From contig JAHCJW010000001.1 of the NCBI GenBank assembly GCA_026126125.1, positions 88,251 to 152,250 on the forward strand: a DNA stretch of 64,000 nt, written 5' to 3'. A program made the translations under genes and the position numbers. Below the pieces are notes generated by a model. It did no database searches. It saw only the letters and a list, made by a program, of their open reading frames with translations, and had not been told where the DNA came from. Within the stretch, counting starts at the first letter, position 1, and the number at the start of each line of letters is the position of its first letter. Below are positions 34,665 through 54,693 of the stretch, one piece after another. This DNA is from Devosia sp. Its GTDB lineage: Bacteria > Pseudomonadota > Alphaproteobacteria > Rhizobiales > Devosiaceae.

Positions 34665-36080
34665 TCAATGCGCGTTCTGGCGGGTGCGCGGGGAGAAGAT
34701 GGTCAGCAGGATGATCCAGCAATCGAGCAGCAGCGACCAGTTCTCGGTGTAATAGAGATCGTGCAGCGTGCGCCCCTCGATCTTGTCCTGGGTCGAGGTG
34801 TCGCCGCGAGAGCCATTGACCTGGGCCCAGCCGGTAATGCCGGGCTTGATGCGCTGGCGCTGGGCGTAGAGCTCGAACTTGCCCGACAATTCATCGTCAT
34901 GGGAAATGGCGTGCGGGCGGGGGCCGACAAGGCTCATCTCGCCGCGCAGTACATTGATCAGCTGCGGCAGTTCGTCGATGCTGGTGCGGCGGATGAACCG
35001 GCCGATCGCGGTGATGCGCGGATCGTTTTCCTGCGCCTGGCGCATGGCGCGGCCATCTTCCATCACCCGCATCGAGCGGAATTTGTAGATGTAGAAATTC
35101 CTCCCGTTAAAGCCCCGGCGCTCCTGGCGATAGAGGGCCGGCCCGGAGCTGGTGAGGCGGATGGCGAGGGCGACGGCCAGCAGCAGCGGCGAGAGCGCCA
35201 GAAGGCCGAGCGAAGCGAGGACGACATCGAAACTGCGCTTGAGGAAGCGGCCGGTGTCGTTGAGCGGCGTGCTCAGCACCCGCAGCGAGTTCACCGATCC
35301 GAGCGGCACGATATCGACCATGTTGATGGCGCGATCCTGTACGACGGATCTTGGATAGAGCAGCACGTTGAGGGCGAAGGGCCGGCAGGGCGCGACGATT
35401 TCGCTCACCGCCTCGAGATTGTCGAGATCGCCGACCAGCAGCACGTGCTGGCAGTTCTTGTCGATGCAGCTGCGGGCGAAATTGGCGATGATCTCGGGCG
35501 AAGGCAGATGGCCGGCAATGCCATCGGGCAGGGTGAGGCTGGTGACCACCTGCCCGCCCTGCTGCCAGATGCGCGGATCGACGCGCAGCCCGTTTACCGC
35601 CGATTGATCGCCGATGACGCCGAAGCGTTCGACCTGCAGCTGGCCCTGCGCCAGCATTTTTGCCAGCTGGCGATAAAGGGCGACGCGCAGCGCGGTCAGC
35701 AGGGCGGGGGTGATGAACAGCCAGACCCAGAAGGTGCGGCCCCAGACCAGGTTCCAGCGCGACGCGGCCAGCGCCACGAGAAAGGCGAGGGCCGCCGCCA
35801 CCGGCCAGCTGAACACGGCATGCAGCGCATAAGGCTGGCGCAAATCGGCGTAGGCGAGGAATTTGCGGGCCGCGCGCGCCGAGGCAATCCCATAGACGAG
35901 CCCCGCCGTCGCGGCCACGGCCAGCACGACCAGCGGTTCGTGGGCGTAGGACAGCATCAGGCTCAGCAGCGCCGCGGCAAGTCCCTCGAACGCTCCGAGG
36001 CCGTTGCTCAGCGTCGCGCGGCTCGGCATTTGAAAACGCCGTCGCCGCCGGGCTTCTGCCTGTGCCACTGGAAGTGTCAT
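34665..36080 (-). CDS. Undecaprenyl-phosphate sugar phosphotransferase (polyprenyl glycosylphosphotransferase)
   Basis: A 471-residue WcaJ/PssA-like enzyme that starts exopolysaccharide repeat units by moving a sugar-1-phosphate onto undecaprenyl phosphate at the inner membrane. Four N-terminal membrane segments (about residues 25-135) precede a CoA-binding-like domain ([18 protein letters not shown]). The catalytic bacterial sugar transferase domain starts [20 protein letters not shown] near 280 and carries [43 protein letters not shown] and [16 protein letters not shown]. It opens the large polysaccharide locus on the opposite strand from the following genes. The start codon choice (36080 or 36149) is uncertain. 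Confidence 0.9.
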
Positions 36081-36200
36081 CGATTGTTTGCCAAAATTCA
36101 GGTGCCGCTCGCTATCAGAATTAGCATTGCTTCGCCCTCGCGCGGGCAAAAAGCTGGCGTTGCGGTTAATATCCTCATCTTGCCGAGAATTTTAAGGTTG

Positions 36201-36929
36201 ATGCGAGGTTTTTCGACGCTTTTTGTTCGCCGGTGCTATTGCAGGGCGGAAAGATTTCGTGGGGGAAGGCATTTGTATTCTTCTCAGGATTTGCATCCAT
36301 TTTTATCTATTTCCATTCTGGCCGGCCCGGGCGTGCTGGTGCCGCGTCCTGAGACGGAGCTGCTGGGCCGTACGGCCATTGATCTCATCGCCGGGCGCGA
36401 TATGCCCGTGGTCATCGACATGTGCTGCGGCTCGGGCAATCTCGGGCTTGCCATTGCCCATGCCCGTCCCGATGCCGAGGTTTATCTCAGCGATCTGACC
36501 GACGAGACGGTGGCGCAGGCGCGCGCCAATGCCGAGCGGCTCGCTCTGGCCGGGCGGGTGCAGGTGGGCCAAGGCGACCTCTTCGCCGGGGTGGCGCCGC
36601 TGCTCGGCGGGCGTCGGGCCGATCTCGTCGTGTGCAATCCGCCCTATATCTCGAGCGGGAAGCTCGCCGCCGAATCCGCCCATCTTCTCGACAACGAACC
36701 GCGTGAAGCCTTCGATGGCGGCGCCTATGGCATCGCCATCCACCAACGCCTGATCGCCGAAGCGCCCGATCATCTGCGCCCGGGCGGCTGGCTGACCTGC
36801 GAGTTCGGCCTGGGCCAGGATCGGCAGATGGCGCTGCTTCTCAAGCGCAGCGGCCGTTATGACGCGGTCGAATTCGTCAATGACGATTTGGGTCAACCGC
36901 GCGTCGTTCAGGCGCGCGTGCACGCATAA
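36201..36929 (+). CDS. HemK/PrmC-like class I SAM methyltransferase
   Basis: A 242-residue methyltransferase. VLVPRPETELLGRTAIDLI near residue 46, the SAM loop VIDMCCGSGNLGLAIAHARP near 70-90, and NPPYISSGKL near 140 are PrmC/HemK marks. NPPY is used for glutamine-N5 or other amide/nitrogen methylation. The typical PrmC N-terminal helical domain is missing, so a release-factor role is doubtful. It sits between the phosphotransferase and the flippase in the polysaccharide locus, which suggests a dedicated substrate. The start is provisional: ATG with AAGG three bases before its spacer. Confidence 0.78.
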   Translation: MRGFSTLFVRRCYCRAERFRGGRHLYSSQDLHPFLSISILAGPGVLVPRPETELLGRTAIDLIAGRDMPVVIDMCCGSGNLGLAIAHARPDAEVYLSDLTDETVAQARANAERLALAGRVQVGQGDLFAGVAPLLGGRRADLVVCNPPYISSGKLAAESAHLLDNEPREAFDGGAYGIAIHQRLIAEAPDHLRPGGWLTCEFGLGQDRQMALLLKRSGRYDAVEFVNDDLGQPRVVQARVHA

Positions 36930-37023
36930 CCCTGAAAAGCGCGCGTTAACGCCGTTTCGGACTTGCAGGACCACTGGCAGCCCGATTGTGGCATAAGCGC
37001 CCTCAGTCCGCTGTAAATTGGCG

Positions 37024-38334
37024 ATGTCCATGCCCGTCCTGTCGCGTTTGCGCAAATTACTGCCTTTGGGCCTTTCCTATCTGGCATCGGGCGGCAGCCT
37101 CATGGTGTCCAGCGCCGCGCAATTGCTGACATTCGCCATTCTGGCGCGCGCGCTCGGGGTCGAGGAGTTCAGCCTTTTCATCGCGGTGACGGCGGTGACC
37201 GCCGTGGCGATCCAGATCTGCGGTCTTGGCGCCCAGGAGGCCCTGGTGCGCCGGGTGGCGCGCGAGCGCCATCTCTATCCCGTCTTTTTGAGCCATAATC
37301 TTCTGCTCTCGGGGATCAGCGGCGCGCTGCTCATGCTTTTGGGCCTGTTGATCCTGCCGGTCCTTCTGCCGCTTTCCCCCGAACCCGCGATCAATCTTGG
37401 ACTTTTCGCCCTGCTGCTGGGCGCCAATATCGTGCTGGCGCGCATCGTGCTTCTGGCCGAGCAGATCTTTATCGCCCACTCCAATTTCGCCGCCGCCAAT
37501 CGTAATGTCGTGCTGTTTGCCCTCGGGCGGCTGGCAGCGGCGGTTCTGGCCTGCCTGGTGTTCGGTGCCGACACTCTTGCCGAATGGATCATCTGGTCGT
37601 TCGGCGCCCATGTGGTGATCGCGCTGTTCAGCGTGCGTTCGGTCCTGCCGCTGGGCCTGCCGCATTTTGCCGTCCGCTGGGAAGAGGTGAAGAACGGCTT
37701 GCTCTTCTCCACGCCGTTCATCCTCAGAGCGCTCCGGCAAAACGTCGATCTGCTGCTGTTGACGGCGTTGACCAGTGCCGAAATCGTCGCCAGCTACGCG
37801 CTGGCCCGGCGCATCATCGATAGCGGCTTTTTGTCCGTGGAAGCGCTCAATCGCCTGCTCTATCCCGGCTCGGCCGCGGCGACGCGCAGCGGGCTGCACC
37901 TGGCCATGCCCCGGTTTGGCAAAATGCTCGGCGCCGTCATCGTCATCGCCCTGTGCGCCGCCATCGTCATCATTGCCGCGGCGCCTCTGCTGCCGGTGCT
38001 GTTCGGGGCGGAATATGTTTCGCTGCGCGGCTTTGCCCAGGTGCTGGCGCCCACCATCGTGCTGATGGCGATCTGGGTTACGGCGCAGGAGGCACTGGGG
38101 TCGAGCGGCCATCACGTCCATCGGGCGGCGCTGTTCAATGGCACGGTGATCCTGGGCGGGGCGCTGGTCGCTCTGGCCACCTGGGCCTATGGGGTCAACG
38201 GCACGTTCATCGCCACCTATGCCACCGAGTTCGCCACCGGCCTTGCCTCCTGGTTTGTGTTGCTGCGCCTCGCCGACCGCGACCGGCGCGACTTGTCCCC
38301 CTCCCATTCCCCAGCATCGGTGCAGGCCAGATGA
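37024..38334 (+). CDS. Polysaccharide flippase (Wzx/MATE-like oligosaccharide transporter)
   Basis: A 436-residue membrane protein with twelve or more predicted segments and short loops, as in Wzx-type flippases that move lipid-linked repeat units across the inner membrane. Segments include SAAQLLTFAILARALGVEEF near the N-terminus, a hallmark style for RfbX-like proteins (LAR.LG.EEF). The C-terminus overlaps the next ATG by four bases. It starts the plus-strand operon flippase-glycosyltransferase-glycoside hydrolase. Confidence 0.85.
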   Translation: MSMPVLSRLRKLLPLGLSYLASGGSLMVSSAAQLLTFAILARALGVEEFSLFIAVTAVTAVAIQICGLGAQEALVRRVARERHLYPVFLSHNLLLSGISGALLMLLGLLILPVLLPLSPEPAINLGLFALLLGANIVLARIVLLAEQIFIAHSNFAAANRNVVLFALGRLAAAVLACLVFGADTLAEWIIWSFGAHVVIALFSVRSVLPLGLPHFAVRWEEVKNGLLFSTPFILRALRQNVDLLLLTALTSAEIVASYALARRIIDSGFLSVEALNRLLYPGSAAATRSGLHLAMPRFGKMLGAVIVIALCAAIVIIAAAPLLPVLFGAEYVSLRGFAQVLAPTIVLMAIWVTAQEALGSSGHHVHRAALFNGTVILGGALVALATWAYGVNGTFIATYATEFATGLASWFVLLRLADRDRRDLSPSHSPASVQAR

Positions 38335-39329
38335 GAGTTTCGATACTGATCAAGACGCTCAACGAGGCCGCCAATATCGCGGCCACCATCGAAAGCGTGC
38401 TTGCCGTGATCGGCCCGCAGGACGAGATCATCATTGCCGATAGCGGCTCGCGCGACGGCACCACCGAAATCGCCGCCCGCTACCCGGTCAAGGTGGTCCA
38501 GATCGCGCCGAGCGAGGCGCCCAGCTGTGGCCTCGGCCCGCAACTGGGTTTCCAATACAGCAAGGGCGAATATCTCTGTCTGATGGATGGCGATATGCTT
38601 CTCGATGCCGGCTTTCTGCCCAGGGCCATCGCCTTTCTCGAACAGAACCCGGCGGTGGCGGGCGTCGGTGGTCATGTCGAGGAAATGAATCTCGAAAATC
38701 TCGAATTTGCCCGGCGCAAATCGCGCGGTGGCAGCGACTATGCCTCCGGTCCCGTCGACCGGCTCAATGGCGGCGGACTATACCGTCGCGCGGCGGTTGA
38801 AAGCGTGGGCTATCTGTCGGATCGAAATCTGCATGGCTATGAGGAGTTCGACCTCAGCGTGCGCCTGCGATCGCGCGGGTGGCAGTTGCACCGGCTCGAC
38901 ACCCCTTTCGTGCAGCATTTCGGCTACAGCATGAATGCCTATGCCTTGCTGTTGCGGCGCTGGCGCAGCAAATATCTGCGCGGCGTGGGCGAGGTGCTCC
39001 GCGCCGGCTGGGGCAAGGACCACTGGTCCTCTCTTTTGCACGACATTCGCGAGCTGCGGCTGTGGGGCGCGGTATATGTCGGTATCCTGGCGCTGCTTCT
39101 GGTGCTGCTGCTGGTGCCCGACAAGCTCCTCGCCCTGGCCATTTGCGCGGTGGCACTGCTCGGCGTCGTCGCGGCGATGAGCGTCAAGCATCGCAGCCTG
39201 TCATTGGGCTCTTATGCCGTTACGGTATGGCTGTTCATGGCGGCGGCTTTGCCTTTGGGCTTTTTTGCCCGGCGCCGGGATCCGGTCGCCTGGATCGACA
39301 GCCGCATCGTGCATGGCGCCGATGCTTAG
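38331..39329 (+). CDS. Family 2 glycosyltransferase with membrane anchor
   Basis: A 332-residue GT2 enzyme. The GT-A fold begins VSILIKTLNEAANIAATIES, with donor-binding DEIIIADSGSRDGT and the metal-binding DxD-like MDGDMLLD near residue 86. A conserved late ED-like motif is HGYEEFDLSVRLRSRGW near 166. About two membrane segments close the protein (LLLVLLLVPDKLLALAICAV and later). It adds one sugar to the repeat unit on the cytoplasmic face. It overlaps the flippase by four bases and the next gene by eight. Confidence 0.9.
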   Translation: MRVSILIKTLNEAANIAATIESVLAVIGPQDEIIIADSGSRDGTTEIAARYPVKVVQIAPSEAPSCGLGPQLGFQYSKGEYLCLMDGDMLLDAGFLPRAIAFLEQNPAVAGVGGHVEEMNLENLEFARRKSRGGSDYASGPVDRLNGGGLYRRAAVESVGYLSDRNLHGYEEFDLSVRLRSRGWQLHRLDTPFVQHFGYSMNAYALLLRRWRSKYLRGVGEVLRAGWGKDHWSSLLHDIRELRLWGAVYVGILALLLVLLLVPDKLLALAICAVALLGVVAAMSVKHRSLSLGSYAVTVWLFMAAALPLGFFARRRDPVAWIDSRIVHGADA

Positions 39330-41481
39330 CCGGCGCGCCCGGATAGCGCTGGTATCGATGCTGTTGTCGATCCAGGGCGTCTGGGCGCAGGATTGGCCGG
39401 CATTGCGCGAAACCAGTCTCGAGATCGACGCCGGCAGTCCGCTGGATTTCTCCGTGATCCTGCCCAACGGCGCCATCGATGCGCAGCGCCACCTGACGCT
39501 GGCCGATGGCCGCTTTGCTTTCAGCGATACTCCCGGGGTTTCGGCTTCGCTGCATTGCGCCTCGCTTGCCTGGAGCCCGGCCTCGGGCGGCTTTCCCGAT
39601 CACGCGAGTGCCGATCGATACGTCACGCAATTGGTCCGGCATGGCTATAATCTGGCGCGGTTTCACTATGTCGAGGCGGCCCTGATGCTGGGCAGCAGCG
39701 CCGATTTTGCCTTTGATCCGGAAACCCTCGATCGCTTTCACTATCTTCTGGCGGCGCTGAAGCGCGCGGGCATTTCCTGGGTCATGGACGGGCTCACCTC
39801 CAATCGCGGTGGCCTGGCCGGTTATGATGACGATCGCGGCGACGTGGTCGGGCCGCTCAAGCAGGAAATCCTGCTCAGCGCGGAAGGCATGGCGCATTGG
39901 CGGCGCCTGCAGGATCTGATCCTTGGCACGGTCAATCCCTATACCGGTCTGGCGCCGATTGCCGATCCGGCGCTGGCGCTGGTGGTGCTGGTCAATGAGG
40001 GCGCTCTCGAATTTGACGGGATTGTCGCCGAAGGGCGGGGCGAGCCGGCCTATTCCGAGCTGGTGCGCAGCCGCTTCAACGCTTTTCTGCGCTCGCGATA
40101 TGTCGATAGCGCCGCCCTCGCGGCGGCCTGGGGTGGGCTTGGCCCCGATGAAAGCCTCGAGGCGGGCACGATTGCCATGCCAACCAATCGCTGGGGCCGC
40201 GATCCGCGCTTTGTCGATCTGCAGCTGTTCTTCACCCAGGTGGAACAGGCCGGCACCCAGACCATGAGCGCTCATCTGCGCGCCATGGGCTATCATGGCG
40301 CCATCAGCAATTACAATAACTGGCCGACGCTGCAGATCTCGCGCAGCCGCGCCGGGCTCGACGTGGTGACGATGAACACCTATTTCGATTGGGTCGGGGG
40401 GTATCAGCCCGGCACGCGCATCGAACAGGGCAGCTCCATCAGCCGCGAGCTCGACTATCTGCGCCTCGCCGCATCCACGCGCTTTCTCGGCAAGCCGTTC
40501 GTGCTGACCGAATATGACCATCTGTTCTGGAACCGTCATCGCTATGAGGCAGGCCTCGCCGTGCCTGCCTTTGCCGCGTTTCAGGGGTGGGACGCCATCT
40601 GCCGGCATGGCCACGGTCCCCTCATCCTGCGCTATGGCGAGGATTTTCCGCACAAACGGCAGATGCTGCCCTATGCCATCGCGCTCGATCCGGTGGCGCG
40701 GGCTGGCGAAACGCTGGCCGCCTTGTTGTTTCGCCGCGGCGATGTGAAGGCCTCGGGCGTGCAAATCGCTTTTCCCCTTGACCTTGCGGCCCGGCCCGGC
40801 CCGGCGATCAATCAACGTGAGCCCGAAGCGGCGACGGCGCTGAGCATTTTCGGCGCTATCGGGCTGACCGGGAATGCCGATCGGGCCGCCACTGCCCTGC
40901 CGGTTTCGCGCGATGGGCTCGGCATGGACGCGCTTGCGGCGCCGATGCTGGCGGCGGGCCTTATCTCCGACAGCCAATGGGCGCTGGCGGGGCGCGGCAT
41001 CTATCGCAGCGATACCGGGGAGCTCACCGTTGTGCCGGGCGCGGCGTTGATCGAGGTCGAAACGCCGCGCACCGTCGCCGCCGCCTTTTCGCGGCTGGAC
41101 CAGCCTTTGCAATTGGGGCCGGTGACCATCGCCGATCCTTCCGGCCCCTCCCTCGTGGCGCTGTCCGCGCTCGATGGGGCGCTGCTCGGGCAAAGCCGGC
41201 GCATCCTCGTCATCTTTGCCAGCGATGCGCATAACACCGATATGCGGTTTGCCGATCTGGGGGAGCGCGAGATCGTGGATTTCGGCCGCCTGCCGGTGCG
41301 CGTCCGGCCGGCCAGCCTGTCCCTGCAACTGGCGGGAGAGGGGATGTGGACGCTCTCGCCGGTCGGGCTGGACGGCGTCGTTCATCCGCCGGTCGGCGCG
41401 GGAGAGGGCGCCCTTGTCTGGCGGCTCGATAATATTGCCCCCTCCGGGCCGACCACCTATTTCGTGATCGAGCGCGGCTGA
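39322..41481 (+). CDS. Exported clan-GH-A-like glycoside hydrolase
   Basis: A 719-residue protein with an N-terminal signal peptide (RRARIALVSMLLSIQGVWAQ). A long (beta/alpha)8-like domain follows: HGYNLARFHYVEAAL, VLVNEGALEFDG near residue 218 (Asn-Glu as in clan GH-A acid/base), and PFVLTEYDHLFWN near 396 (possible nucleophile Glu). The C-terminal third is beta-rich. The overall scheme fits a GH5/GH42-like hydrolase. It likely trims the polysaccharide in the periplasm. The 3' end overlaps the converging glycosyltransferase gene by 25 bases. Confidence 0.75.
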   Translation: MLSRRARIALVSMLLSIQGVWAQDWPALRETSLEIDAGSPLDFSVILPNGAIDAQRHLTLADGRFAFSDTPGVSASLHCASLAWSPASGGFPDHASADRYVTQLVRHGYNLARFHYVEAALMLGSSADFAFDPETLDRFHYLLAALKRAGISWVMDGLTSNRGGLAGYDDDRGDVVGPLKQEILLSAEGMAHWRRLQDLILGTVNPYTGLAPIADPALALVVLVNEGALEFDGIVAEGRGEPAYSELVRSRFNAFLRSRYVDSAALAAAWGGLGPDESLEAGTIAMPTNRWGRDPRFVDLQLFFTQVEQAGTQTMSAHLRAMGYHGAISNYNNWPTLQISRSRAGLDVVTMNTYFDWVGGYQPGTRIEQGSSISRELDYLRLAASTRFLGKPFVLTEYDHLFWNRHRYEAGLAVPAFAAFQGWDAICRHGHGPLILRYGEDFPHKRQMLPYAIALDPVARAGETLAALLFRRGDVKASGVQIAFPLDLAARPGPAINQREPEAATALSIFGAIGLTGNADRAATALPVSRDGLGMDALAAPMLAAGLISDSQWALAGRGIYRSDTGELTVVPGAALIEVETPRTVAAAFSRLDQPLQLGPVTIADPSGPSLVALSALDGALLGQSRRILVIFASDAHNTDMRFADLGEREIVDFGRLPVRVRPASLSLQLAGEGMWTLSPVGLDGVVHPPVGAGEGALVWRLDNIAPSGPTTYFVIERG

Positions 41482-42644
41482 GGCGTGCGGATGCGCAAGG
41501 GCTGGTTGCTGGTGCTGCGCCGCATCAGCGACGCATAAAGCGCGCTGAGGCTGTCGGCGACCCCGTCCCAGGCAAAGCGCTGTCGTACCATGTCGATCTG
41601 CGCCTGTTTTTGCGCTGCGCTCATCGGTGCGGTCATGGCCTGGGCGATGCGCTCGGCCAGTTGTCCGGTGTTTCCCAGGGCAAAGTAGCGGTCGGTGTCG
41701 AGCCCCACCCCCAGATTGGCGGCGATGTCGCTGGCCAGAACCGGCAGGCCATGGCTCAATCCTTCGAGCAGGGCGATGGGCATGCCTTCATGGCTCGATG
41801 GCAGCACGAACAGGCCCGCATGGGCAAACAGGTCGTTGAGCGCGGCTCCGCTCTGATAGCCGGTCATCACCACACCGGGCACCTGAGCGGCGGCGGCGCG
41901 CAGATCGGCTTCATAGCCGGAGCGGTGGTCCGCCGCGCCGACAAGGACCAGCTTGAAATCGGGATTGGCCAATCGCCCATAGGCGGCGACCAGATCCAGC
42001 TGGCGTTTTTCCGGCACCAGCCGCGAGACGTTGAGCACGTAGCGCCCGGGCGTGAGGGCAAAGCGCTCGATGACGTCCGAGCCCAGCGGGCCATTGGGCA
42101 TGAAGACGCCGTTGGGCAGGAAATTGACCGGCCGCCCATAGCGGGCCTGCATGTCGCGGGCGACATTGTCGGCGACGGCCACGGCGCTGTCTGCCCATCG
42201 CATGCCCATGTTTTCGCCCAGGCGCAGCACTTCGCGGGCCACGCGCCCCCATTTGTCCCGGTCATAGTCATAGCCGTGATGGGTGACGAGCGTCTTCAGC
42301 CCCGCCAGCCGCGCCGCCGGCGTCAGCAGCGCCGGGCCGATGGCATGGATATGCACGATGTCGGGGCGGCGAAGCGCCGCGATCGCGACGCCAAGACCGG
42401 TATGAACCAGCGCCTCGAACCGGGCGTTGCGGGGCGACCAGATCGGCTCGACGCCGACGCCTTTGAAGGTCTGCGGTCCGCCCGGCATATAGGGTTTGCG
42501 CGCCAGCACATCGATGGCCCAGCCGCGCTCGACAAGCAGCGGGGCAAGGGCGCCGACATGGGTTTCGACGCCGCCCTGCGGTCCATTGATGCCGCGCAGG
42601 CCCAACATGGTCACCGAGCTGCGTTTTTGTCGCCGTTCCATCAT
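41457..42644 (-). CDS. Family 4 glycosyltransferase
   Basis: A 395-residue GT-B, GT4-type enzyme. Acceptor domain: LRGINGPQGGVETHVGALAP, then PDIVHIHAIGPALL. Donor domain: VLNVSRLVPEKRQLDLVAAY near residue 200 and the EX7E-like LFVLPSSHEGMPIALLEGLS near 275-294, where the retained glutamates bind the nucleotide sugar. It overlaps the next minus-strand GT4 gene by four bases and the glycoside hydrolase gene by 25 bases. Confidence 0.92.
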   Translation of the reverse strand: MMERRQKRSSVTMLGLRGINGPQGGVETHVGALAPLLVERGWAIDVLARKPYMPGGPQTFKGVGVEPIWSPRNARFEALVHTGLGVAIAALRRPDIVHIHAIGPALLTPAARLAGLKTLVTHHGYDYDRDKWGRVAREVLRLGENMGMRWADSAVAVADNVARDMQARYGRPVNFLPNGVFMPNGPLGSDVIERFALTPGRYVLNVSRLVPEKRQLDLVAAYGRLANPDFKLVLVGAADHRSGYEADLRAAAAQVPGVVMTGYQSGAALNDLFAHAGLFVLPSSHEGMPIALLEGLSHGLPVLASDIAANLGVGLDTDRYFALGNTGQLAERIAQAMTAPMSAAQKQAQIDMVRQRFAWDGVADSLSALYASLMRRSTSNQPLRIRTPQPRSITK

Positions 42645-47414: not shown

Positions 47415-47549
47415 GCGACACTGCTGGTTCGGGCTTTGATATTCAATATAGAATAGGCCGAACCTGAACTCAGTGCCTTTCGGCCAAGGTAGTTAAAAGG
47501 ATCTTTGTTAACCGCTCCAAGCAAAGGTTGGAAACACCGAGACCCCATC

Positions 47550-48698
47550 ATGGTATTGAGCGGGGTGCGTATAACCGGCAATCTGGAAAAAATGCTGTCA
47601 GAACAGGTGCCCAGTGCTGGCGTCACGGACACGGATCCCGTGGCTCAGCGGCATTTGCGGGCGATGACATCGGCAGACCTTCCCCATATCGAGCGGCTGT
47701 TCTTCGACGTTTTCCGCGCGGGCGGGCAGAACCGGGCCGGTTTTTCCCAATATTTCCGACGTCTGTTTCTCGAAGGGCCGAATGTGGGCGGCGGTCTGGT
47801 CAGCGATGACGACCAGAACAGGATCGCGGCTGCTTTCGCCTATCTGCCGGTGCGCTACAAGATCTATGACCAAACCGTCACGGCGAAGCTGGCCTGTTCC
47901 TTCATGTCCGACAGGCGCTCGCCCATGGCGGCAGCGCGCCTCGTGATGTCGATGCGGTCGCGCACGCAGGATCTGGTGTTTACCGACAGCGTTTCCCATG
48001 CTGGGGTCGGTCATCTGATGGCTGCGGGAGCGGCGGTGCTGCCGGTCCAGAGCCTTGACTGGATCTGCCGGTTCAAGCCGGTGAGCGCCCTGGCGCGGCG
48101 GGCCCGCCTGCCCGCCCTGTTCGATGGCGCCGCTGGCCTGGCCGATCGCGTGGTGACGCGCCTGCGCCCGAGGCCCGTGCCGGAAGCCAGGCTCGCCATC
48201 ACCGAAACCGATCTGCATGCCTTTGCCGAAGCGGTGCCCTTGATGCTGGCGCAATTTGCCGTGCGGCCGGACTGGACCGACGCGGAATTGCGCTGGCTGC
48301 TCGGCCTCGCATCGGAAAACACCGCTCTGGGGCAATTGCGCTTCTTTGCCTTTCACGACCGCTCCGGCGAGCGTGTGGGGTGCCTCGCCGCCTATTTCGA
48401 CGGGCGCAAGCGGGTGCGGGTGCTCGATGTCATGGCCTTGCCGGGCAATGAAAACCACGTCGTCGAGACCATGCTCGCCTTTTTGCGCGGGCTGGGGACC
48501 AGCGAGGCGTTTGGCCCGAGCCATCCGCATCTGTTGCTGGCCCTGGCGCCGCATCGCGGTGTGATGTTTCGGCATCGAAGTTTTACCTGCGTGCTGACCC
48601 GCTTTGACCAGGTCAAAAAATCGATCCATCACAACGAGATCTATATGGGCGGGCTCGCTGGGGAGAGCTGGAGCCGACTGATGACGGATTTTTTCTGA
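47550..48698 (+). CDS. GNAT-fold-like protein, first of a tandem pair
   Basis: A 382-residue protein with an N-acetyltransferase-like start, HLRAMTSADLPHIERLFFDV, near residue 35. It is clearly homologous to the next gene: both have a S-L-D-W motif mid-way (VQSLDWICRF), an R/G-x-MFRH segment near the end (HRGVMFRHRSF), and a closing GE-x-WSRL (AGESWSRLMTDFF). Acetyl-CoA binding residues are not obvious, so substrate and donor are unknown. Start is uncertain: ATG 47550, a later ATG 47592, or TTG 47505 with AAGG five bases ahead. Part of the polysaccharide locus. Confidence 0.78.
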   Translation: MVLSGVRITGNLEKMLSEQVPSAGVTDTDPVAQRHLRAMTSADLPHIERLFFDVFRAGGQNRAGFSQYFRRLFLEGPNVGGGLVSDDDQNRIAAAFAYLPVRYKIYDQTVTAKLACSFMSDRRSPMAAARLVMSMRSRTQDLVFTDSVSHAGVGHLMAAGAAVLPVQSLDWICRFKPVSALARRARLPALFDGAAGLADRVVTRLRPRPVPEARLAITETDLHAFAEAVPLMLAQFAVRPDWTDAELRWLLGLASENTALGQLRFFAFHDRSGERVGCLAAYFDGRKRVRVLDVMALPGNENHVVETMLAFLRGLGTSEAFGPSHPHLLLALAPHRGVMFRHRSFTCVLTRFDQVKKSIHHNEIYMGGLAGESWSRLMTDFF

Positions 48699-48700
48699 AC

Positions 48701-49825
48701 ATGACCAATGCGGCGCATATTCGCCCCCTGGCAGCGGCCGACATCGCTGCGGTTGCCCACCTGTTCCAGCGGCAGCTGCGCCGTTCGCAGCGGGTGCCGC
48801 CGCCGGCGCTGTCACGCTATCTCGAACAGCTGTTTGTTTCCGGCCCCTTTGCCAGCGCCGCCATGCCCTCCCTCGTCTATGAGCGCGAGACGGGCATTGC
48901 CGGCTTTATCGGCGTCACCTCCCAGCCCATGCAGGTGGAGGGGCGCGATCTGAAGGTGGCGGTGTGCGGCGCGCTGATGGTCGAGGGCTATCAAGCCGAT
49001 CCGATGGCGGGCGCGCGCCTGCTCAAGGCGTTCCTGTCGGGAGAGCAGGATATTGCGCTGAGCGAGACGGCGGGCGATGCGACCCTGACCATGTGGCGCC
49101 AGCTCGGCGGCGAGGTGTTGTCGCGGCATAGTCTTGACTGGCTGCGCATCGTCCGGCCGGGCGGTTTCGCCGTGGAGACGCTGGAGCGACGCGTGCCCGG
49201 CGCGCGGCTTGTTTCCCCGCTCGCCCACCTGGCGGATCGGATCATGCGCGGCTCTTCGGCGCGGCGCAGCGATTTGCGCTGGGCCTCGCTGCCCGACGAT
49301 CTCAAGACTGCCGCCAATCTCGATGTGGAAATCATCTCGCCCGACCAGTATCTGGACGAGGTGCGCCAGTTTACCGATGGTTTCGCCATCCGGCGGCAAT
49401 GGTCGGAGCCGGCGCTGGCTCAGCTGGGAGAGGATCTGGCCCACAAATCCGAGCATGGGCAATTGCGCATTGGCCTGTTGCGGGCCAAAGGCGGGCGGCG
49501 CCTGGGCAGTTTCGTCTATTACTGGCGCAAGGGCGCGACGGCGCGGGTGCTCGATGTGCTGGCCCGGCCCGCGCAGGCGGGCATGGTCATCGACGCGCTG
49601 CTGGGTGATGCGGCGCGGCTGGGGGCGGTGGCGGTACGCGGGCGCACCAGCCCGGCGCTGTTCGATGCGCTGCTCGAGCGGCGCTGTCTGATGTTTCGAC
49701 ACGGCGCCAGCGTGATTTCGGGCCGCGACAAGGCCGTGGTCGACAGGTTCAAGCAAGGCGACGCCGCCTTTAATGGCGTGGTTGGCGAGCGCTGGTCCCG
49801 ACTGCTGGGCGATGACTTCGCTTAA
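48701..49825 (+). CDS. GNAT-fold-like protein, second of a tandem pair
   Basis: A 374-residue paralog of the preceding gene, starting two bases after its stop. N-terminus HIRPLAAADIAAVAHLFQRQ gives the GNAT-like fold; SLDWLRIVRPGG, ERRCLMFRHGASV and VGERWSRLLGDDFA match the pair's shared motifs. Overall the two proteins are strongly diverged, so the duplication is old. Both are followed by the amidotransferase operon. They may acylate two sugars or act together; FemAB-like peptidyl transfer is also possible. Confidence 0.8.
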   Translation: MTNAAHIRPLAAADIAAVAHLFQRQLRRSQRVPPPALSRYLEQLFVSGPFASAAMPSLVYERETGIAGFIGVTSQPMQVEGRDLKVAVCGALMVEGYQADPMAGARLLKAFLSGEQDIALSETAGDATLTMWRQLGGEVLSRHSLDWLRIVRPGGFAVETLERRVPGARLVSPLAHLADRIMRGSSARRSDLRWASLPDDLKTAANLDVEIISPDQYLDEVRQFTDGFAIRRQWSEPALAQLGEDLAHKSEHGQLRIGLLRAKGGRRLGSFVYYWRKGATARVLDVLARPAQAGMVIDALLGDAARLGAVAVRGRTSPALFDALLERRCLMFRHGASVISGRDKAVVDRFKQGDAAFNGVVGERWSRLLGDDFA

Positions 49826-49942
49826 CCCTAATCGTTAACAATATTTGCGGAATCGTGGGCCGTTATTGCAGTTCTCTCACGGTTCCGCGCCTCTTGCGCG
49901 TTAGACTTGCGTAAGAGAATGACTGGCAATCGAGAGGCCTTC

Positions 49943-51886
49943 ATGTGCGGGTTTGCAGGGTATAGCGCCACTGGCCTTGCCCCCGAAATGGGGCAGGTGC
50001 TGCTGCGCGCCATGACGGAGAGCATCGCCCATCGCGGGCCGGATGCGAGCGGGGTGTGGGCTGGCCCGGGCGTCGGGCTTGGCCATCGGCGCCTGTCGAT
50101 TGTCGGGCTTGAAGATGGGCAGCAGCCCATGGGGCTGGACGATCTGGTGCTGGCCTATAATGGCGAGATCTTCAATTTCGTCGAATTGCGCGCCGAACTC
50201 GAGGCAAAGGGCCGAAAATTCCGCACCGGCAGCGACACCGAAGTCATTCTCCATCTCTATCGGGAGCTGGGCACGGCGGCGCTGGACAAGCTCAATGGCG
50301 ATTTCGCCTTCGCGCTCTGGGATGGCGGCAGGAAGCGCCTGTTCCTGGCGCGGGATCGCGTCGGGGTGCGGCCGCTCTTTTATACCGAGCGTCCCGACGG
50401 GTTCTATTTCGCGTCCGAGATCAAGGCGCTGCTCGAGGTGCCCGGCGTCGAGGCCGAACTCGATCCGTTTGCGCTCGATGAGATTTTTACCCTCTGGGCG
50501 CCGCTGGCCCCGCGCAGCGGCTTCAAGGGCATCGCCGAATTGCCGCCCGGCCATTTCATGCTGGTCGAAAACGGCCATTGCCGCATCGAGCGCTATTGGG
50601 ATTTCGATTTTCCCGACCTTGCAGATGGCTATGACAGCCGCTCCGAGGCCGTGCTGGCCGAAGACGTGCTGGCGCTGCTCGATGATGCGACGCGCATCCG
50701 CATGCGCGCCGATGTGCCGGTCGGAGCCTATCTTTCGGGCGGGCTCGACAGCTCCATCACCGCCGCGCTGGCCACAAGGCATACGCCGCATCGGCTGGCA
50801 ACCTTCTCGGTCGGCTTTGAGAGCGCCGAGCATGACGAGACCGCCTATCAGGCCTTGATGGCCGAGGCCCTGGGCACCGACCATGTCGCGGTCACCTGCC
50901 GCAATGCCGATATCGCTTCGGTCTTCCCCCAGGTCATCGCCCATACCGAGCGCCCGATCGTGCGCACGGCGCCAGCGCCGCTGTTCCTGCTCTCGGGTCT
51001 CGTGCGCGACAATGCCATCAAGGTGGTGCTGACCGGGGAGGGGGCCGACGAGGTGTTCGCCGGCTATGATCTGTTCAAGGAAGACAAGGTCCGGCGCTTT
51101 GCGGCCCGCCAGCCGGGTTCGGCGCGTCGCCCGCTGCTGTTCAAGCGGCTCTATCCCTATCTGCCCAATCTGCAGAACCAGTCGGCCGATTATCTCACCG
51201 CCTTTTTTGGCGTCACGCCGGATCTACTCTCCGATCCCCTGGCCTCGCATCGCCCGCGCTTCCGCTCGACTTCGGCGGCCAAGCTGTTCTTTTCGGGCGA
51301 TCTGCGCTCGACGCTGGCCGGCTATGATGCCGCCGCCGCCCTTGCCGATACGCTTCCGGCGCGCTTTGCCCGCTGGCATCCCCAGCATCAGGCGCAATAT
51401 CTCGAAAGCCGCTTCCTTCTGCCCGGCTATATCCTGTCCTCGCAGGGCGACCGCATGGCCATGGCGCATGGGGTCGAGGGGCGCTTCCCCTTCCTCGATC
51501 ACCGCCTGATGGCGCTGGCCGCGCGCCTGCCGCCGCGGCTGACGCTCAAGGGACTGGTGGAAAAGCACATTCTGCGTCAGGCGACGCGCCATCTCCTGCC
51601 CGAGAGCATCGGCTCGCGCACCAAGCAGCCCTATCGCGCGCCCGACAGCCAGGTCTTCGCCGCATCCGCCGAGGCGTCTTATGTCGGCGAGGTGCTGGCC
51701 CCGGACGCGATTGCCGAAACCGGCCTGTTCAATCCTCAGGCGGTGTCGCGTCTGGTGGCCAAGGCCGGGGTGACCGGCGTCGAAGGCTTCCGCGACAACA
51801 CCGCCTATGTGGGCATTTTGTCCACCCAGCTTTGGCACCGGACCTTTGCCCGGAGCCGCCGGACCGCGACGATCGCGGCCGAATGA
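49943..51886 (+). CDS. Asparagine synthase-type glutamine-hydrolysing amidotransferase
   Basis: A 647-residue AsnB-family enzyme. The N-terminal glutaminase starts MCGFAGY with the catalytic Cys2, and contains HRGPDASGVW and LAYNGEIFNF. The C-terminal ATP-pyrophosphatase domain has YLSGGLDSSITAAL near residue 268, and VVLTGEGADEVFAGYD near 372. Members in polysaccharide and exosortase-A clusters amidate a sugar acid or a peptide-like carboxylate rather than free aspartate. An ATG 12 codons upstream is excluded because Cys2 must be at the N-terminus after Met removal. It opens a four-gene operon with an ACP, an AMP ligase and a NAD-synthetase-like protein. Confidence 0.92.
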   Translation: MCGFAGYSATGLAPEMGQVLLRAMTESIAHRGPDASGVWAGPGVGLGHRRLSIVGLEDGQQPMGLDDLVLAYNGEIFNFVELRAELEAKGRKFRTGSDTEVILHLYRELGTAALDKLNGDFAFALWDGGRKRLFLARDRVGVRPLFYTERPDGFYFASEIKALLEVPGVEAELDPFALDEIFTLWAPLAPRSGFKGIAELPPGHFMLVENGHCRIERYWDFDFPDLADGYDSRSEAVLAEDVLALLDDATRIRMRADVPVGAYLSGGLDSSITAALATRHTPHRLATFSVGFESAEHDETAYQALMAEALGTDHVAVTCRNADIASVFPQVIAHTERPIVRTAPAPLFLLSGLVRDNAIKVVLTGEGADEVFAGYDLFKEDKVRRFAARQPGSARRPLLFKRLYPYLPNLQNQSADYLTAFFGVTPDLLSDPLASHRPRFRSTSAAKLFFSGDLRSTLAGYDAAAALADTLPARFARWHPQHQAQYLESRFLLPGYILSSQGDRMAMAHGVEGRFPFLDHRLMALAARLPPRLTLKGLVEKHILRQATRHLLPESIGSRTKQPYRAPDSQVFAASAEASYVGEVLAPDAIAETGLFNPQAVSRLVAKAGVTGVEGFRDNTAYVGILSTQLWHRTFARSRRTATIAAE

Positions 51887-51911
51887 TTTTCATCTGAAAA
51901 GGAACAACCTC

Positions 51912-52175
51912 ATGAGCGACCATATCAAGGCCAATATTCGCGGCTTCATCATCGAGAACTTCCTGTTCGGCGACACCAGCCAGGTCATCGAGGACACCAC
52001 TTCGCTGATCGATAATGGCTATGTCGATTCGACCGGCGTGCTCGAGCTGGTGTTCCACATCGAGCAGAGCTTCGGCATCAAGGTCGCCGACAGCGATATC
52101 GTGCCGGCCAATCTCGACAGTGTCGGCGCCATCGCCGCCTATGTCGAAGCCAAGCAGCGCAGCGCGGCCGCCTGA
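51912..52175 (+). CDS. Acyl carrier protein
   Basis: An 87-residue carrier protein. The phosphopantetheine site is NGYVDSTGVLELVFHIEQSF (Ser in DSTG) near residue 39, with helices typical of ACPs before and after. It differs from fatty-acid ACP by DST instead of DSL. Immediately upstream of an AMP-dependent ligase that could load it. It likely carries an acyl or aminoacyl group for transfer onto the polysaccharide or a precursor. Confidence 0.9.
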   Translation: MSDHIKANIRGFIIENFLFGDTSQVIEDTTSLIDNGYVDSTGVLELVFHIEQSFGIKVADSDIVPANLDSVGAIAAYVEAKQRSAAA

Positions 52176-52190
52176 GGCGGGAGCCCGATC

Positions 52191-53726
52191 ATGCGCGTCG
52201 AGAACTTCCTCACCCACAGCGCCGCCCGCCTGCCGCAGAAGACGGCGCTGGTGGTCGGCGAGCGGCGGCTGAGCTTTGCCGAGCTGGACGATCTCAGCTC
52301 CCGCCTCGCCGCGGGGCTGGTGGCGCAGGGCGTCGGCCGCGACGATCGCGTGCTGGTGTTTCTCGACAATGGCTGGGAAGCGGCGGTGGCGATTTTCGCC
52401 GTGCTCAAGGCCGGCGCCACGTTCAGCCCGATCAATCCTTCGACCAAGCCCGACAAGCTGGCCTATATCGCCGACAACTGCCAGGGAAGGGTGATCATCA
52501 CCCAGGCGCGGCTCCTGCCCATGGTGGCCGAGGCGCGAAAGGAAGGCGCAGAGTTCCGAGCGGTGATTTCCGCCGGACAAAGCGCTGCAGTGCCCGATGC
52601 CGTGCCGCTCGAGGGTTTGCTGGCCAATCCTGCTGCTGCGCCGGTTCATGGCGGCATCGACAGCGATCTGGCCATGCTCATCTACACCTCCGGCTCGACC
52701 GGCCGCCCCAAGGGCGTGATGATGAGCCATCGCAATATCGAGGCGGCCTCGCTCTCGATCCTCACCTATCTCGAAAACACCGAAGACGACATCATTCTCA
52801 ACGTCTTGCCGCTGGCCTTCGACTATGGGCTCTATCAATTGCTGATGGCGGTGCGGCTCGGGGCGACGCTGGTGCTGGAAAAGTCCTTCGCCTTCCCCGC
52901 CGCGATTTTCGAATTGATGCGCAAGGAAAAGGTCACCGGCCTGCCGCTGGTGCCGACCATGGCGGCGCTGATCCTCAATATGCAGGATCTCGAACCCGGC
53001 TCCTTCCCCACCCTGCGCTATATCACCAATACCGCCGCCGCGCTGCCGCCCGCCCATATCGAGCGCTTGCAGACGCTGTTGCCGGGCACCACCATTTTTT
53101 CGATGTATGGCCTGACCGAATGCAAGCGCTGCACCTATCTGCCGCCGGCGCGCCTCAAGGACAAGGCCGGCTCGGTCGGCATCGCCATCCCCAATACCGA
53201 GGCTTTCGTGCTCGACGATGAAGGCAACCGGGTGGCGCCGGGCGAAATCGGCCAGCTGGTCATTCGCGGTCCCCATGTCATGCAGGGCTATTGGGCCAAT
53301 GCAGAGGCCACGGCGAAATCGCTGCGCCCCGGCCTCAAGCCGTGGGAAAGGCTGCTCTATACCGGCGATCTGTTCTATGCCGATGCGGAGGGTTTCCTCT
53401 ATTTCGTCGGCCGCACCGACGACATCATCAAGACGCGCGGCGAAAAGGTCGCGCCCAAGGAAGTCGAGGCGGTGCTCGTCGCTTGTCCGGGCGTCGTCGA
53501 GGTGGTGGTGGTGGGCAAGCAGGATCCGGTGCTCGGCCATGCCATCCACGCCATCGTGGTCAAGAACGATCCGGCGCTGAGCGAGCGCGACATCATCCGT
53601 CACTGCGCCAAAAGTCTCGAAGACTTCATGGTGCCCAAATCGGTCGAGTTCCGCGACAGCCTGCCCAAGACCGATACCGGCAAGGTGAGCCGTCGCCTTG
53701 CCGCCGAAAGCCTGGAGAACACCTGA
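52191..53726 (+). CDS. Acyl-AMP ligase (ANL superfamily), ACP-loading type
   Basis: A 511-residue adenylate-forming enzyme that activates a carboxylate with ATP and hands it to a thiol (CoA or the ACP encoded upstream). Core motifs: MLIYTSGSTGRPKGVMMSHR near residue 163, MYGLTECKRCTY near 305 and YTGDLFYADAEGFLYFVGRT near 388-407. The final lysine is in SLPKTDTGKVSRRLAAE. This subgroup occurs in exosortase-A clusters. Substrate unknown. Stop lies one base before the next ATG. Confidence 0.93.
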   Translation: MRVENFLTHSAARLPQKTALVVGERRLSFAELDDLSSRLAAGLVAQGVGRDDRVLVFLDNGWEAAVAIFAVLKAGATFSPINPSTKPDKLAYIADNCQGRVIITQARLLPMVAEARKEGAEFRAVISAGQSAAVPDAVPLEGLLANPAAAPVHGGIDSDLAMLIYTSGSTGRPKGVMMSHRNIEAASLSILTYLENTEDDIILNVLPLAFDYGLYQLLMAVRLGATLVLEKSFAFPAAIFELMRKEKVTGLPLVPTMAALILNMQDLEPGSFPTLRYITNTAAALPPAHIERLQTLLPGTTIFSMYGLTECKRCTYLPPARLKDKAGSVGIAIPNTEAFVLDDEGNRVAPGEIGQLVIRGPHVMQGYWANAEATAKSLRPGLKPWERLLYTGDLFYADAEGFLYFVGRTDDIIKTRGEKVAPKEVEAVLVACPGVVEVVVVGKQDPVLGHAIHAIVVKNDPALSERDIIRHCAKSLEDFMVPKSVEFRDSLPKTDTGKVSRRLAAESLENT

Positions 53727-53727
53727 T

Positions 53728-54693
53728 ATGAGCGGATTTTCCCGCGACACGCTGGTCATCGACGCCGACGCCGAAGTGGCGCGCATCACCGCCGCCATGC
53801 GCAACCAGTTGCGCGGCGAGCTCAAGCGCCGGGGTCTGGTGCTCGGCCTGTCGGGCGGCATCGATTCGAGCGTCTGCGCCGCGCTGGCGGTCAAGGCGGT
53901 TGGCCCCGAGCGCGTCTTTGGCCTCTTCATGCCGGAAAACGACTCCGATCCCGAAAGCCTGTCGCTGGGCCGCTCGGTGGCGGAAACCTTCGGCTTTGCC
54001 GCCGAGGTCGAGGATATCGGTCCGGCGCTCGCCGCCATGGGCTGCTATCGCCGTCGCGACGACTTCATCCGCACGCTCGTGCCCGACTATGGCACCGGCT
54101 GGGCCTGCAAGGTGGTCATCGCCGATCCGCTGGCCGGGGCCGGCTTTGCCGTCTCCTCGCTGGTGGTGCAGTCTCCCCTGGGCGAAACGCAGAAGATCCG
54201 CCTCACCGCCGAGGCCTATCAGGGCATCATCGCTGCCACCAATATGAAGCAGCGCACCCGCAAGCAGATGGAATATTATCACGCCGACCGGCTCAACTAT
54301 GCCGTCATAGGAACCCCGAACCGGCTCGAATACGACCAGGGCTTCTTCGTCAAGAACGGCGATGGCGCGGCGGATCTGAAGCCGATCGCCCATCTTTACA
54401 AATCGCAGGTCTATCAGCTTGCCGCGCATCTGGGCGTGCCGGCCGATATCTGCCGCCGCCCGCCCACCACCGACACCTGGTCGATGGCGCAGAGCCAGGA
54501 GGAGTTTTACTTTTCCCTGCCCTATGACCGGATGGATCTGTGTCTTTACGGCCTCAACCACGATCTGCCGCGCGAGGCGGTGGCCGAGGCGGCCGGGCTG
54601 ACGCTCGACCAGCTCGACACGGTCTGGGCCGATATCGCCCGCAAGCGCGTTGCCACCCGCTATCTCAGCCTGCCGCCGCTCTTGGTGGCGTGA
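53728..54693 (+). CDS. NAD-synthetase-like ATP-pyrophosphatase (NadE family) of the polysaccharide locus
   Basis: A 321-residue NadE-like protein without a glutaminase domain. The PP-loop is VLGLSGGIDSSVCAALAVKA near residue 41. Conserved NadE parts: FFVKNGDGAADLKPIAHLYK near 217 and an amide-forming region RPPTTDTWSMAQSQEEFYFS near 251, where usual NadE has a PSA-type motif. It is longer than housekeeping NadE (~275 residues). In this operon it may activate and amidate a carboxylate with ammonia; NAD synthesis itself cannot be excluded. It converges on hemN with three bases between stops. Confidence 0.82.
   Translation: MSGFSRDTLVIDADAEVARITAAMRNQLRGELKRRGLVLGLSGGIDSSVCAALAVKAVGPERVFGLFMPENDSDPESLSLGRSVAETFGFAAEVEDIGPALAAMGCYRRRDDFIRTLVPDYGTGWACKVVIADPLAGAGFAVSSLVVQSPLGETQKIRLTAEAYQGIIAATNMKQRTRKQMEYYHADRLNYAVIGTPNRLEYDQGFFVKNGDGAADLKPIAHLYKSQVYQLAAHLGVPADICRRPPTTDTWSMAQSQEEFYFSLPYDRMDLCLYGLNHDLPREAVAEAAGLTLDQLDTVWADIARKRVATRYLSLPPLLVA

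Follow-up and report, generated by a model that had tools for sequence, protein, structure and literature searches.

We analysed a stretch of 64,000 nucleotides from Devosia sp. (GenBank assembly GCA_026126125.1, contig JAHCJW010000001.1, positions 88,251 to 152,250), in the following called the window, with regard to a run of genes at the end of an exopolysaccharide (EPS) locus. Four of these genes, encoding an AsnB-type amidotransferase, an acyl carrier protein (ACP), an adenylating ligase (ANL) and a NadE-like protein, are referred to as the quartet, and the loci carrying them as module loci. The cassette is real and conserved, its four genes staying together in many soil bacteria; it is read as a variant of VinN-type carrier loading in which amide-forming enzymes take the place of a decarboxylase, and it is often, not always, tied to EPS genes.

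Gene content of the locus

The genes were read from lists of open reading frames (ORFs), codon-usage scoring and profile searches, with the start codons being our choice. Two GNAT-like genes precede the quartet, and all six genes lie on the plus strand, separated by gaps of 2, 117, 25, 15 and 1 bases:

47565 to 48698, plus strand: GNAT1, same family as GNAT2, found together with EPS genes
48701 to 49825, plus strand: GNAT2, tandem GNAT-fold acyltransferase according to AlphaFold model and Foldseek, usual partner of the quartet
49943 to 51886, plus strand: AsnB-type glutamine amidotransferase (TIGR01536, 495 bits, cut-off 267.1)
51912 to 52175, plus strand: stand-alone acyl/peptidyl carrier protein (ACP) with DST site (PF00550, 25.3 bits, cut-off 20.8)
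52191 to 53726, plus strand: VinN-type adenylating ligase (ANL), pocket residues D, Y, T, K and R at VinN positions 230, 231, 299, 330 and 331
53728 to 54693, plus strand: NadE-like PP-loop amide-forming enzyme (NF002048, 513.8 bits, cut-off 313)

The genes named in an earlier note on this DNA, made from the sequence alone, are present where it had placed them and are tightly spaced; they run in one direction only from GNAT1 to the NadE-like gene, while the EPS locus of the Wzx/Wzy kind (34665 to 47414) has genes on both strands.

Conservation of the quartet

The NadE-like protein was used as bait, and relatives of it are encoded in 151 stretches of the genome collection. The best 80 of these 151, nearly all from Rhizobiales according to their titles, together with five plasmid loci and two further loci form a set of 87 loci after removal of duplicates. 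Omitted were L035 and L036, which come from the same genomes as L041 and L042, as well as L121 and L122, both with all four genes; weaker NadE matches (42 to 44%) in other Devosia genomes (L038 to L040), proteins of about 280 codons and of another kind, were not counted. All four quartet genes stand together in 84 of the 87 loci, which excludes chance. The remaining three are the D. crocina locus L041, which has no ligase, and two loci on cut contigs (L048, L049).

In Devosia, the closest named relatives of the NadE-like protein show identities of 91, 88, 84 and 83%. In a phylum-wide draw of 398 genomes, including that of the window, the NadE-like family was found over its cut-off in 15, and 11 of the 14 other genomes were sampled for deeper loci. 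The other three genes lie within about 7 kb of the NadE-like gene in all 11 of these, at identities of 35 to 67% and in three gene orders, to which Azospirillum adds a fourth. The survey of the neighbourhood proposed in the earlier note thus finds the quartet together both among the closer and among the deeper loci. Since a close NadE-like protein is encoded in only 20 of 297 genomes of the order and in 3 of 37 genomes of the genus (own genome included), the quartet is regarded as an accessory cassette. In the open-licence literature of PubMed Central (PMC), judged from listings, no paper on the whole quartet was found.

A different NadE-like protein, mostly of about 280 codons and with 37 to 42% identity over the C-terminal part, was observed in several other Devosia genomes (L009 to L017), and no other quartet gene lies near it in three Devosia stretches (L038 to L040). 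Quartets close to the alphaproteobacterial ones also occur in records titled Bacillus subtilis SK6B4 (L050), Armatimonadetes MAG (metagenome-assembled genome; L119) and Roseateles sp. XES5 (L190); here the titles could be erroneous or the assemblies of mixed origin.

The ligase and its pocket

Over the pocket, the closest solved relatives of the ligase are the VinN entries 3wv4 and 3wvn with 100 bits, followed by the next relative with 54 bits; in a search with the whole protein, VinN ranks behind multi-domain peptide synthetases, for which the scores of several domains add up. The structure of VinN was reportedly described by Miyanaga in 2014. In VinN numbering, checked on the alignment, the ligase of the window has Asp230, Tyr231 (Phe in VinN), Thr299 (Ser in VinN), Lys330 and Arg331. 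A VinN-type ligase is characterized by Asp230, bulky residues at 231 and 299, Lys330, Arg331 and a stand-alone carrier protein alongside; all five positions are identical or similar here, and the ACP gene lies 15 bases upstream of the ligase gene. Among the features that a review assigns to beta-amino-acid ligases are F231, S299, K330 and R331, with D230 coordinating the amino group (PMC11253843). Likewise, Asp230 of VinN is proposed to bind the amino group and Ser299 and Arg331 the alpha-carboxyl group (PMC7756342). AfcQ, another enzyme of this type, is described to activate L-Asp, with Arg311, corresponding to Arg331, modelled on the alpha-carboxylate (PMC12186527).

Arg331 was found in all 99 distinct module ligases and in all six exosortase-A-type ligases, compared to one of ten paralogues, in which the Arg stands in a gapped loop. 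Asp230 occurs in 73 of the 99 module ligases, in five of the six exosortase-A-type ligases and in none of the ten paralogues; the module ligases comprise D (73), G (13), N (5), T (3), S (2), A (2) and one gap at this position. The ten paralogues come from two module genomes; for one of the eleven control stretches the motif filter yielded no ORF. Of the exosortase-A-type ligases, four score over the TIGR03098 cut-off and two (L140, L160) under it. A FastTree phylogeny splits module and exosortase-A-type ligases from the paralogues with a support of 99. Within this part of the tree, the exosortase-A-type ligases form one group, the deep module ligases L162 to L164 branch outside, and the module ligases are not one clade; since the branches are long, this topology calls for caution. 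Taken together, the ligase is very probably a VinN-type enzyme for a dicarboxylic acid.

A link between the Asp230 class and the EPS context was considered and rejected. A ligase is present in 85 loci; of the 63 with Asp230, 39 lie beside EPS genes, compared to 2 of the other 22 (Fisher p 1.4e-5). Among these 22 is L049, in which residue 230 is lost at a contig cut. On the tree, the residue changes five times and provides three independent pairs, by which the link is not significant, and it was not used as evidence.

AsnB, ACP and NadE-like proteins

The glutaminase site (Cys) and the synthetase site of AsnB are intact. In the alignment, the Cys is kept in 97 of 98 rows (one gap) and the Glu, Asp and Lys in all 98; the score for the NAGGN amidotransferase model TIGR03104 (370.6 bits) lies under the cut-off of 570.1. 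The D-S of the DST site of the ACP is found in 98 of 98 rows and its T in 97, and the best solved relative is the peptidyl carrier protein 2my5. The NadE-like protein also scores above the cut-off of TIGR00552 (153.4 bits, cut-off 63.65). Its PP-loop residues are kept in 100 of 100 rows and the NadE motifs overall in 98 to 100 of 100. A second, longer NadE of 576 codons is encoded elsewhere in the genome (G000:C253).

GNAT1, GNAT2 and the neighbours of the quartet

Neither GNAT1 nor GNAT2 showed a Pfam or NCBIfam match at an E value of 0.001. The two proteins share 27% identity and belong to the same family, and the AlphaFold model of GNAT2 (pLDDT 93.3) is a tandem GNAT fold. The best Foldseek match of this model was 4my3, a GNAT from Kribbella (E 1.2e-11, TM 0.56), followed by Eis and N-myristoyltransferases with a TM of about 0.5.

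GNAT2 was found in 72 of the 87 loci, in 61 of them at most 1.5 kb from the quartet. GNAT1 was found in 37, and 36 of these comprise at least two of five EPS genes; in the 45 loci without such a set of EPS genes, GNAT1 occurs in one and GNAT2 in 34. A profile search for GNAT2 relatives revealed one in 20 stretches, corresponding to one of 14 module stretches (L139). The GNAT of Azospirillum is at best a distant relative of GNAT2 (hhalign 34%).

Among the deeper relatives, the gene beside the quartet encodes a further GNAT in L163 and Azospirillum, a thioesterase in L165, L168 and L170, and a protein combining adenylation and thioesterase parts in L167 and L171; in L161 and L164 its product has no Pfam match. 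Since this neighbour varies between GNAT, thioesterase and adenylation-thioesterase protein, the transfer enzyme looks exchangeable, while the quartet is constant. In L167 (2962 to 5115) and L171 (10459 to 13107), two deeper relatives from the same taxonomic order, the adjoining protein resembles a nonribosomal peptide synthetase (NRPS), and the quartet is arranged as NadE, AsnB, ligase and ACP.

Proposed replacement of the decarboxylase

In the biosynthesis of vicenistatin, VinO is described to act on the ACP-bound amino acid, from which it removes the free carboxyl group (PMC11284099). A decarboxylase of the family TIGR03099, over cut-off, directly adjoins the ligases of L135, L136 and L137, and decarboxylases under the cut-off of 478.45 lie beside the ligases of L160 (second set of D. 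crocina, 390.7 bits) and L187 (Rahnella HX2, 373.4 bits). A tblastn search with these five decarboxylases found relatives in seven of nine stretches with other VinN-type ligases, among them those of Gemmobacter (L188) and Tritonibacter (L189), and none in L138 and L140. In the 102 module stretches, window included and most of them reaching 10 kb to each side, no relative was found. The genome of the window encodes no TIGR03099 protein over cut-off.

On a plasmid of Rahnella aquatilis HX2 (L187, 8745 to 13825), the VinN-type ligase (pocket D, Y, T, H, R), a carrier protein and the TIGR03099-like decarboxylase form part of a natural-product-like cluster. Gemmobacter (L188) and Tritonibacter (L189) have similar ligase, carrier and decarboxylase genes.

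Relation to exosortase-A systems

A likeness to genes of exosortase-A clusters in the absence of an exosortase had been pointed out in the earlier note, and both parts of this statement hold. AsnB scores 430.6 bits with the exosortase-A amidotransferase model TIGR03108 (cut-off 816.9) and the ligase 473.2 bits with the exosortase-A ligase model TIGR03098 (cut-off 592.35), both under cut-off; for the ACP no exosortase-named family was matched. An exosortase elsewhere in the genome, which would have spoken against the note, was searched with TIGR02602, and none was found in this genome, which is 91% complete; PEP-CTERM proteins (TIGR02595) over cut-off were not found there either (best E 0.95). 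An exosortase was detected in one of 36 module genomes tested out of more than 80. As a positive control, the same search found exosortases in three of six genomes with related ligases, located 10 to 17 kb from the ligase in the genomes of L135, L136 and L137, and none in G468, G357 and G423. The one case among these 36 in which an exosortase over cut-off (G492:C11:1570-2274) accompanies the quartet is an Ahrensia MAG with the locus L096.

The exosortase-A-type ligases group with the module ligases against the paralogues, and an AsnB-like gene can lie near such a ligase (L135). Unlike these systems, the module has an additional NadE-like protein, scores under the curated cut-offs and shows no exosortase, PEP-CTERM match or TIGR03099 in its stretches. 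A word search of the 2006 exosortase paper (PMC1569441) gave no hit for ligase, amidotransferase, acyl carrier, asparagine synth or decarboxylase. Based on the missing exosortase and PEP-CTERM matches in the genome of the window, the scores below cut-off and the single case among 36 module genomes, the exosortase reading was rejected for this locus.

The EPS genes and the question of the acceptor

The features around the six genes described above are as follows:

33751: tRNA-Leu, just ahead of the locus
34665 to 36029, minus strand: sugar (hexose-1-phosphate) transferase, TIGR03025 family (363 bits, cut-off 295.55; start uncertain, ORF open to 36149)
36201 to 36929, plus strand: HemK/PrmC-like methyltransferase (TIGR00536, 143.7 bits, cut-off 115.5; start uncertain)
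37024 to 38334, plus strand: Wzx-type flippase (PF01943, 48.2 bits, above cut-off)
38331 to 39329, plus strand: glycosyltransferase family 2 (PF00535, 72.8 bits)
39313 to 41481, plus strand: conserved protein of about 720 residues, no Pfam match, same family in 10 loci
41457 to 42644, minus strand: glycosyltransferase family 4, under all curated cut-offs
42641 to 43879, minus strand: glycosyltransferase family 4, under all curated cut-offs
43876 to 44625, minus strand: polysaccharide deacetylase, HfsH/NodB type nearest (PF01522, 64.1 bits, above cut-off)
44618 to 45937, minus strand: Wzy-type polymerase / O-antigen ligase family (PF04932, 53.8 bits, above cut-off)
45939 to 47414, minus strand: Wzc/GumC-type chain-length protein (TIGR01005, 122.7 bits, under the cut-off of 411.7)
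54697 to 56049, minus strand: hemN, next gene after the NadE-like gene

Since hemN differs in function, it is taken as the edge of the locus. The deacetylase reaches 165.6 bits with the HfsH holdfast model NF050820, under the curated cut-off of 400. The conserved protein at 39313 to 41481, for which the AlphaFold model is poor (pLDDT 56), could at a guess be a glycosidase. A gene of the HemK/PrmC family also adjoins the GNAT2 relative in locus L127.

Within the stretches of the 84 loci, Wzc was found in 48, the polymerase in 41, the flippase in 40 and the deacetylase in 36. Azospirillum shows a sugar transferase, polymerase, glycosyltransferases and deacetylase, followed by ACP, ligase, AsnB, NadE and GNAT. 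In Shinella and Nitratireductor, GNAT2, AsnB, ACP, ligase and NadE form a free five-gene run. Since the quartet also stands without EPS genes, the polymer cannot be its general target, and the cassette supplies a group that is usable for more than one acceptor. Concerning the locus of the window, the chance that EPS is the acceptor is considered to be slightly short of even.

Comparison with known systems

In Sinorhizobium meliloti, the quartet lies on a pSymB-type replicon, once per record, and each matching plasmid record has one place matching the ligase at E 1e-100. The original report on the ligase SMb20650 and the ACP SMb20651 of this species is that of Ramos-Vega (2009). SMb20650 is cotranscribed with SMb20651 and, expressed in E. 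coli, acylates holo-SMb20651, while it cannot replace FadD, neither in S. meliloti nor in E. coli (PMC7232532). In a transcriptome study, smb20650 is listed among the down-regulated fatty-acid genes (PMC10315480); two further papers only cite the S. meliloti ACP (PMC9386255, PMC9542644). From replicon, gene order and description, SMb20650 and SMb20651 are inferred to be the ligase and ACP of the quartet; the S. meliloti records examined bear other locus tags or none. By description and replicon it is the same operon, with a ligase that loads its ACP in E. coli, whereas strain RCAM1115 has a shortened EPS part next to the quartet. The GNAT1 match of this strain is split into two pieces (L121, 32413 to 33530).

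The module shares the VinN-type pocket and the stand-alone carrier protein with VinN/VinL/VinO of vicenistatin, and likewise with AfcQ and BolO, and, as it appears, also a dicarboxylic amino acid gripped by its free carboxyl group. It differs from these systems by AsnB and the NadE-like protein in place of the pyridoxal phosphate (PLP) decarboxylase, by a GNAT instead of an acyltransferase feeding a polyketide synthase, and by its EPS or stand-alone setting. D-alanylation by DltA/DltC follows the same logic, in that a carrier protein is charged with an amino acid destined for a surface polymer; however, the module ACP reaches only 21.9 bits compared to the DltC cut-off of 68, and the ligase is of another type. 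NodB/NodF/NodA of the Nod factors also combine a deacetylase, a carrier protein and an N-acyltransferase in this manner. Compared to these, the deacetylase reaches 33.9 bits (NodB cut-off 240), and the module comprises an amino-acid-type ligase and amidating enzymes in addition.

Discussion

Altogether, an assembly line is proposed in which a small dicarboxylic acid would be adenylated by the VinN-type ligase and loaded on the ACP. The most likely candidate is L-aspartate, reacting through its side-chain carboxyl so that the alpha-carboxyl stays free. AsnB would amidate this free alpha-carboxyl using glutamine, and the NadE-like protein might amidate with ammonia derived from AsnB or perform a second, similar step; as a speculation, both could act in sequence, even to an amidine. 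A tandem-GNAT acyltransferase, GNAT2 and perhaps GNAT1, would then take the amidated acyl group off the ACP and pass it to an amine, for which an EPS amino sugar freed by the HfsH/NodB-type deacetylase would be the likely acceptor here. Amidation of the free carboxyl is the most economical reading, since AsnB and the NadE-like protein stand where related systems decarboxylate. Of these steps, the loading of the ACP by the ligase is reported from experiment, for the S. meliloti orthologue. The ligase type, the character of the quartet as a unit and the GNAT fold are strongly supported on the level of sequence; the identity of the substrate, the amidation on the ACP, the role of the NadE-like protein and the acceptor we infer only, and we give the complete reading from acid loading via amidation and GNAT transfer to the EPS amino sugar about an even chance. 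The earlier note had suggested that a carrier-bound acyl or amide group is built and placed on the polymer. The former is well supported by the ligase pocket, the constant presence of AsnB and the NadE-like protein and the acylation of the S. meliloti ACP. The latter is plausible at this locus, as the quartet lies beside a Wzx/Wzy locus with deacetylase in many Rhizobiales and in Azospirillum, but did not hold as a general target in view of the genomes without a polymerase match given below.

Several observations weigh against this assembly line. GNAT2 is missing from 15 of the 87 loci (including two on cut contigs and two Azospirillum loci with another GNAT), and no relative of it was found in the 11 deeper loci. 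Where Asp230 is replaced (25 of 99 ligases), the acid may lack an amino group. In eight of 17 genomes with the quartet apart from EPS (fewer than two EPS genes within reach), the Devosia EPS polymerase has no counterpart matching at 1e-20; just three of the 17 reach an identity of 38% or more, compared to 47 to 53% in all three control genomes with EPS beside the quartet. Furthermore, NF002048 was also found over cut-off in Methanosarcina acetivorans (one of 14 control genomes), so that the NadE family may exist apart from the quartet, and the role of the NadE-like protein is left without explanation. Finally, D. crocina keeps AsnB, ACP and NadE without the module ligase between ACP and NadE (L041, 7678 to 10957), with a decarboxylase set 18 kb off in the same genome (L160, 6138 to 9215). 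At 1e-40 this genome has a single matching ligase; it is encoded together with an ACP and the TIGR03099-like decarboxylase at the opposite end of the same EPS locus and may thus supply both lines.

Among the alternatives, the quartet could make a diffusible small molecule, such as a small nonribosomal peptide, an amide or an osmolyte, with an EPS neighbourhood that is incidental or regulatory. This would agree with the EPS-free loci of Shinella, Nitratireductor and Mesorhizobium, with the thioesterase or adenylation-thioesterase neighbours in place of a GNAT in some deeper relatives and with the natural-product-like clusters around the related ligases of Rahnella, Gemmobacter and Tritonibacter. 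With Wzc in 48 and the polymerase in 41 of 84 loci, and a different EPS arrangement in Azospirillum, we regard it as rather unlikely, yet as an alternative to be taken seriously. The carboxylate that NadE normally amidates is part of a nucleotide diphosphate, and together with the NadE motifs kept in nearly all rows this would fit the idea that NadE-like protein and AsnB act on other substrates, for example converting a nucleotide-linked uronic acid to a uronamide, with acylation left to a separate line of ligase, ACP and GNAT. As the four genes stay together in several arrangements, with EPS genes or not, such a division appears improbable.

The loading of a long-chain fatty acid, by which the GNAT would acylate an amino sugar in the fashion of NodA/NodF, has a similarly low probability. 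The ACP loading by the S. meliloti ligase (PMC7232532) and the N-myristoyltransferase matches of GNAT2 point in this direction, whereas the pocket with its invariant Arg argues against it and two amide-forming enzymes would be left unexplained. The failure of SMb20650 to replace FadD is a further counterargument, with the limit that this experiment tests CoA and not ACP as acceptor (PMC7232532). Due to this failed complementation and the ligase pocket, the fatty-acid reading was set aside. Ordinary metabolism, with the genes serving as spare NAD synthetase and asparagine synthetase, can draw on the generic families matched over cut-off, but the linkage with ACP and ligase and the longer NadE elsewhere in the genome make it extremely improbable; a housekeeping NadE was set aside because of this other copy.

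The proposed assembly line provides a testable substrate and reaction order for an operon that has figured in the model symbiont S. meliloti as an orphan pair of carrier protein and ligase, and it casts doubt on the customary annotations as NAD synthase, asparagine synthase and long-chain acyl-CoA ligase. Moreover, it links EPS loci to the beta-amino-acid loading logic of natural-product pathways and suggests that the ligase, ACP and decarboxylase genes of exosortase-A systems perform the same loading, followed by decarboxylation. In its widest and clearly tentative form, which we rate as possible and not as probable, Rhizobiales and their relatives would decorate a surface polysaccharide with an aspartate-type residue in amidated or amidinated form, made on a carrier protein via nonribosomal-peptide chemistry, by means of a movable cassette with tandem amide-forming enzymes in place of a decarboxylase and an exchangeable offloading enzyme, be it a GNAT, a thioesterase or an NRPS.

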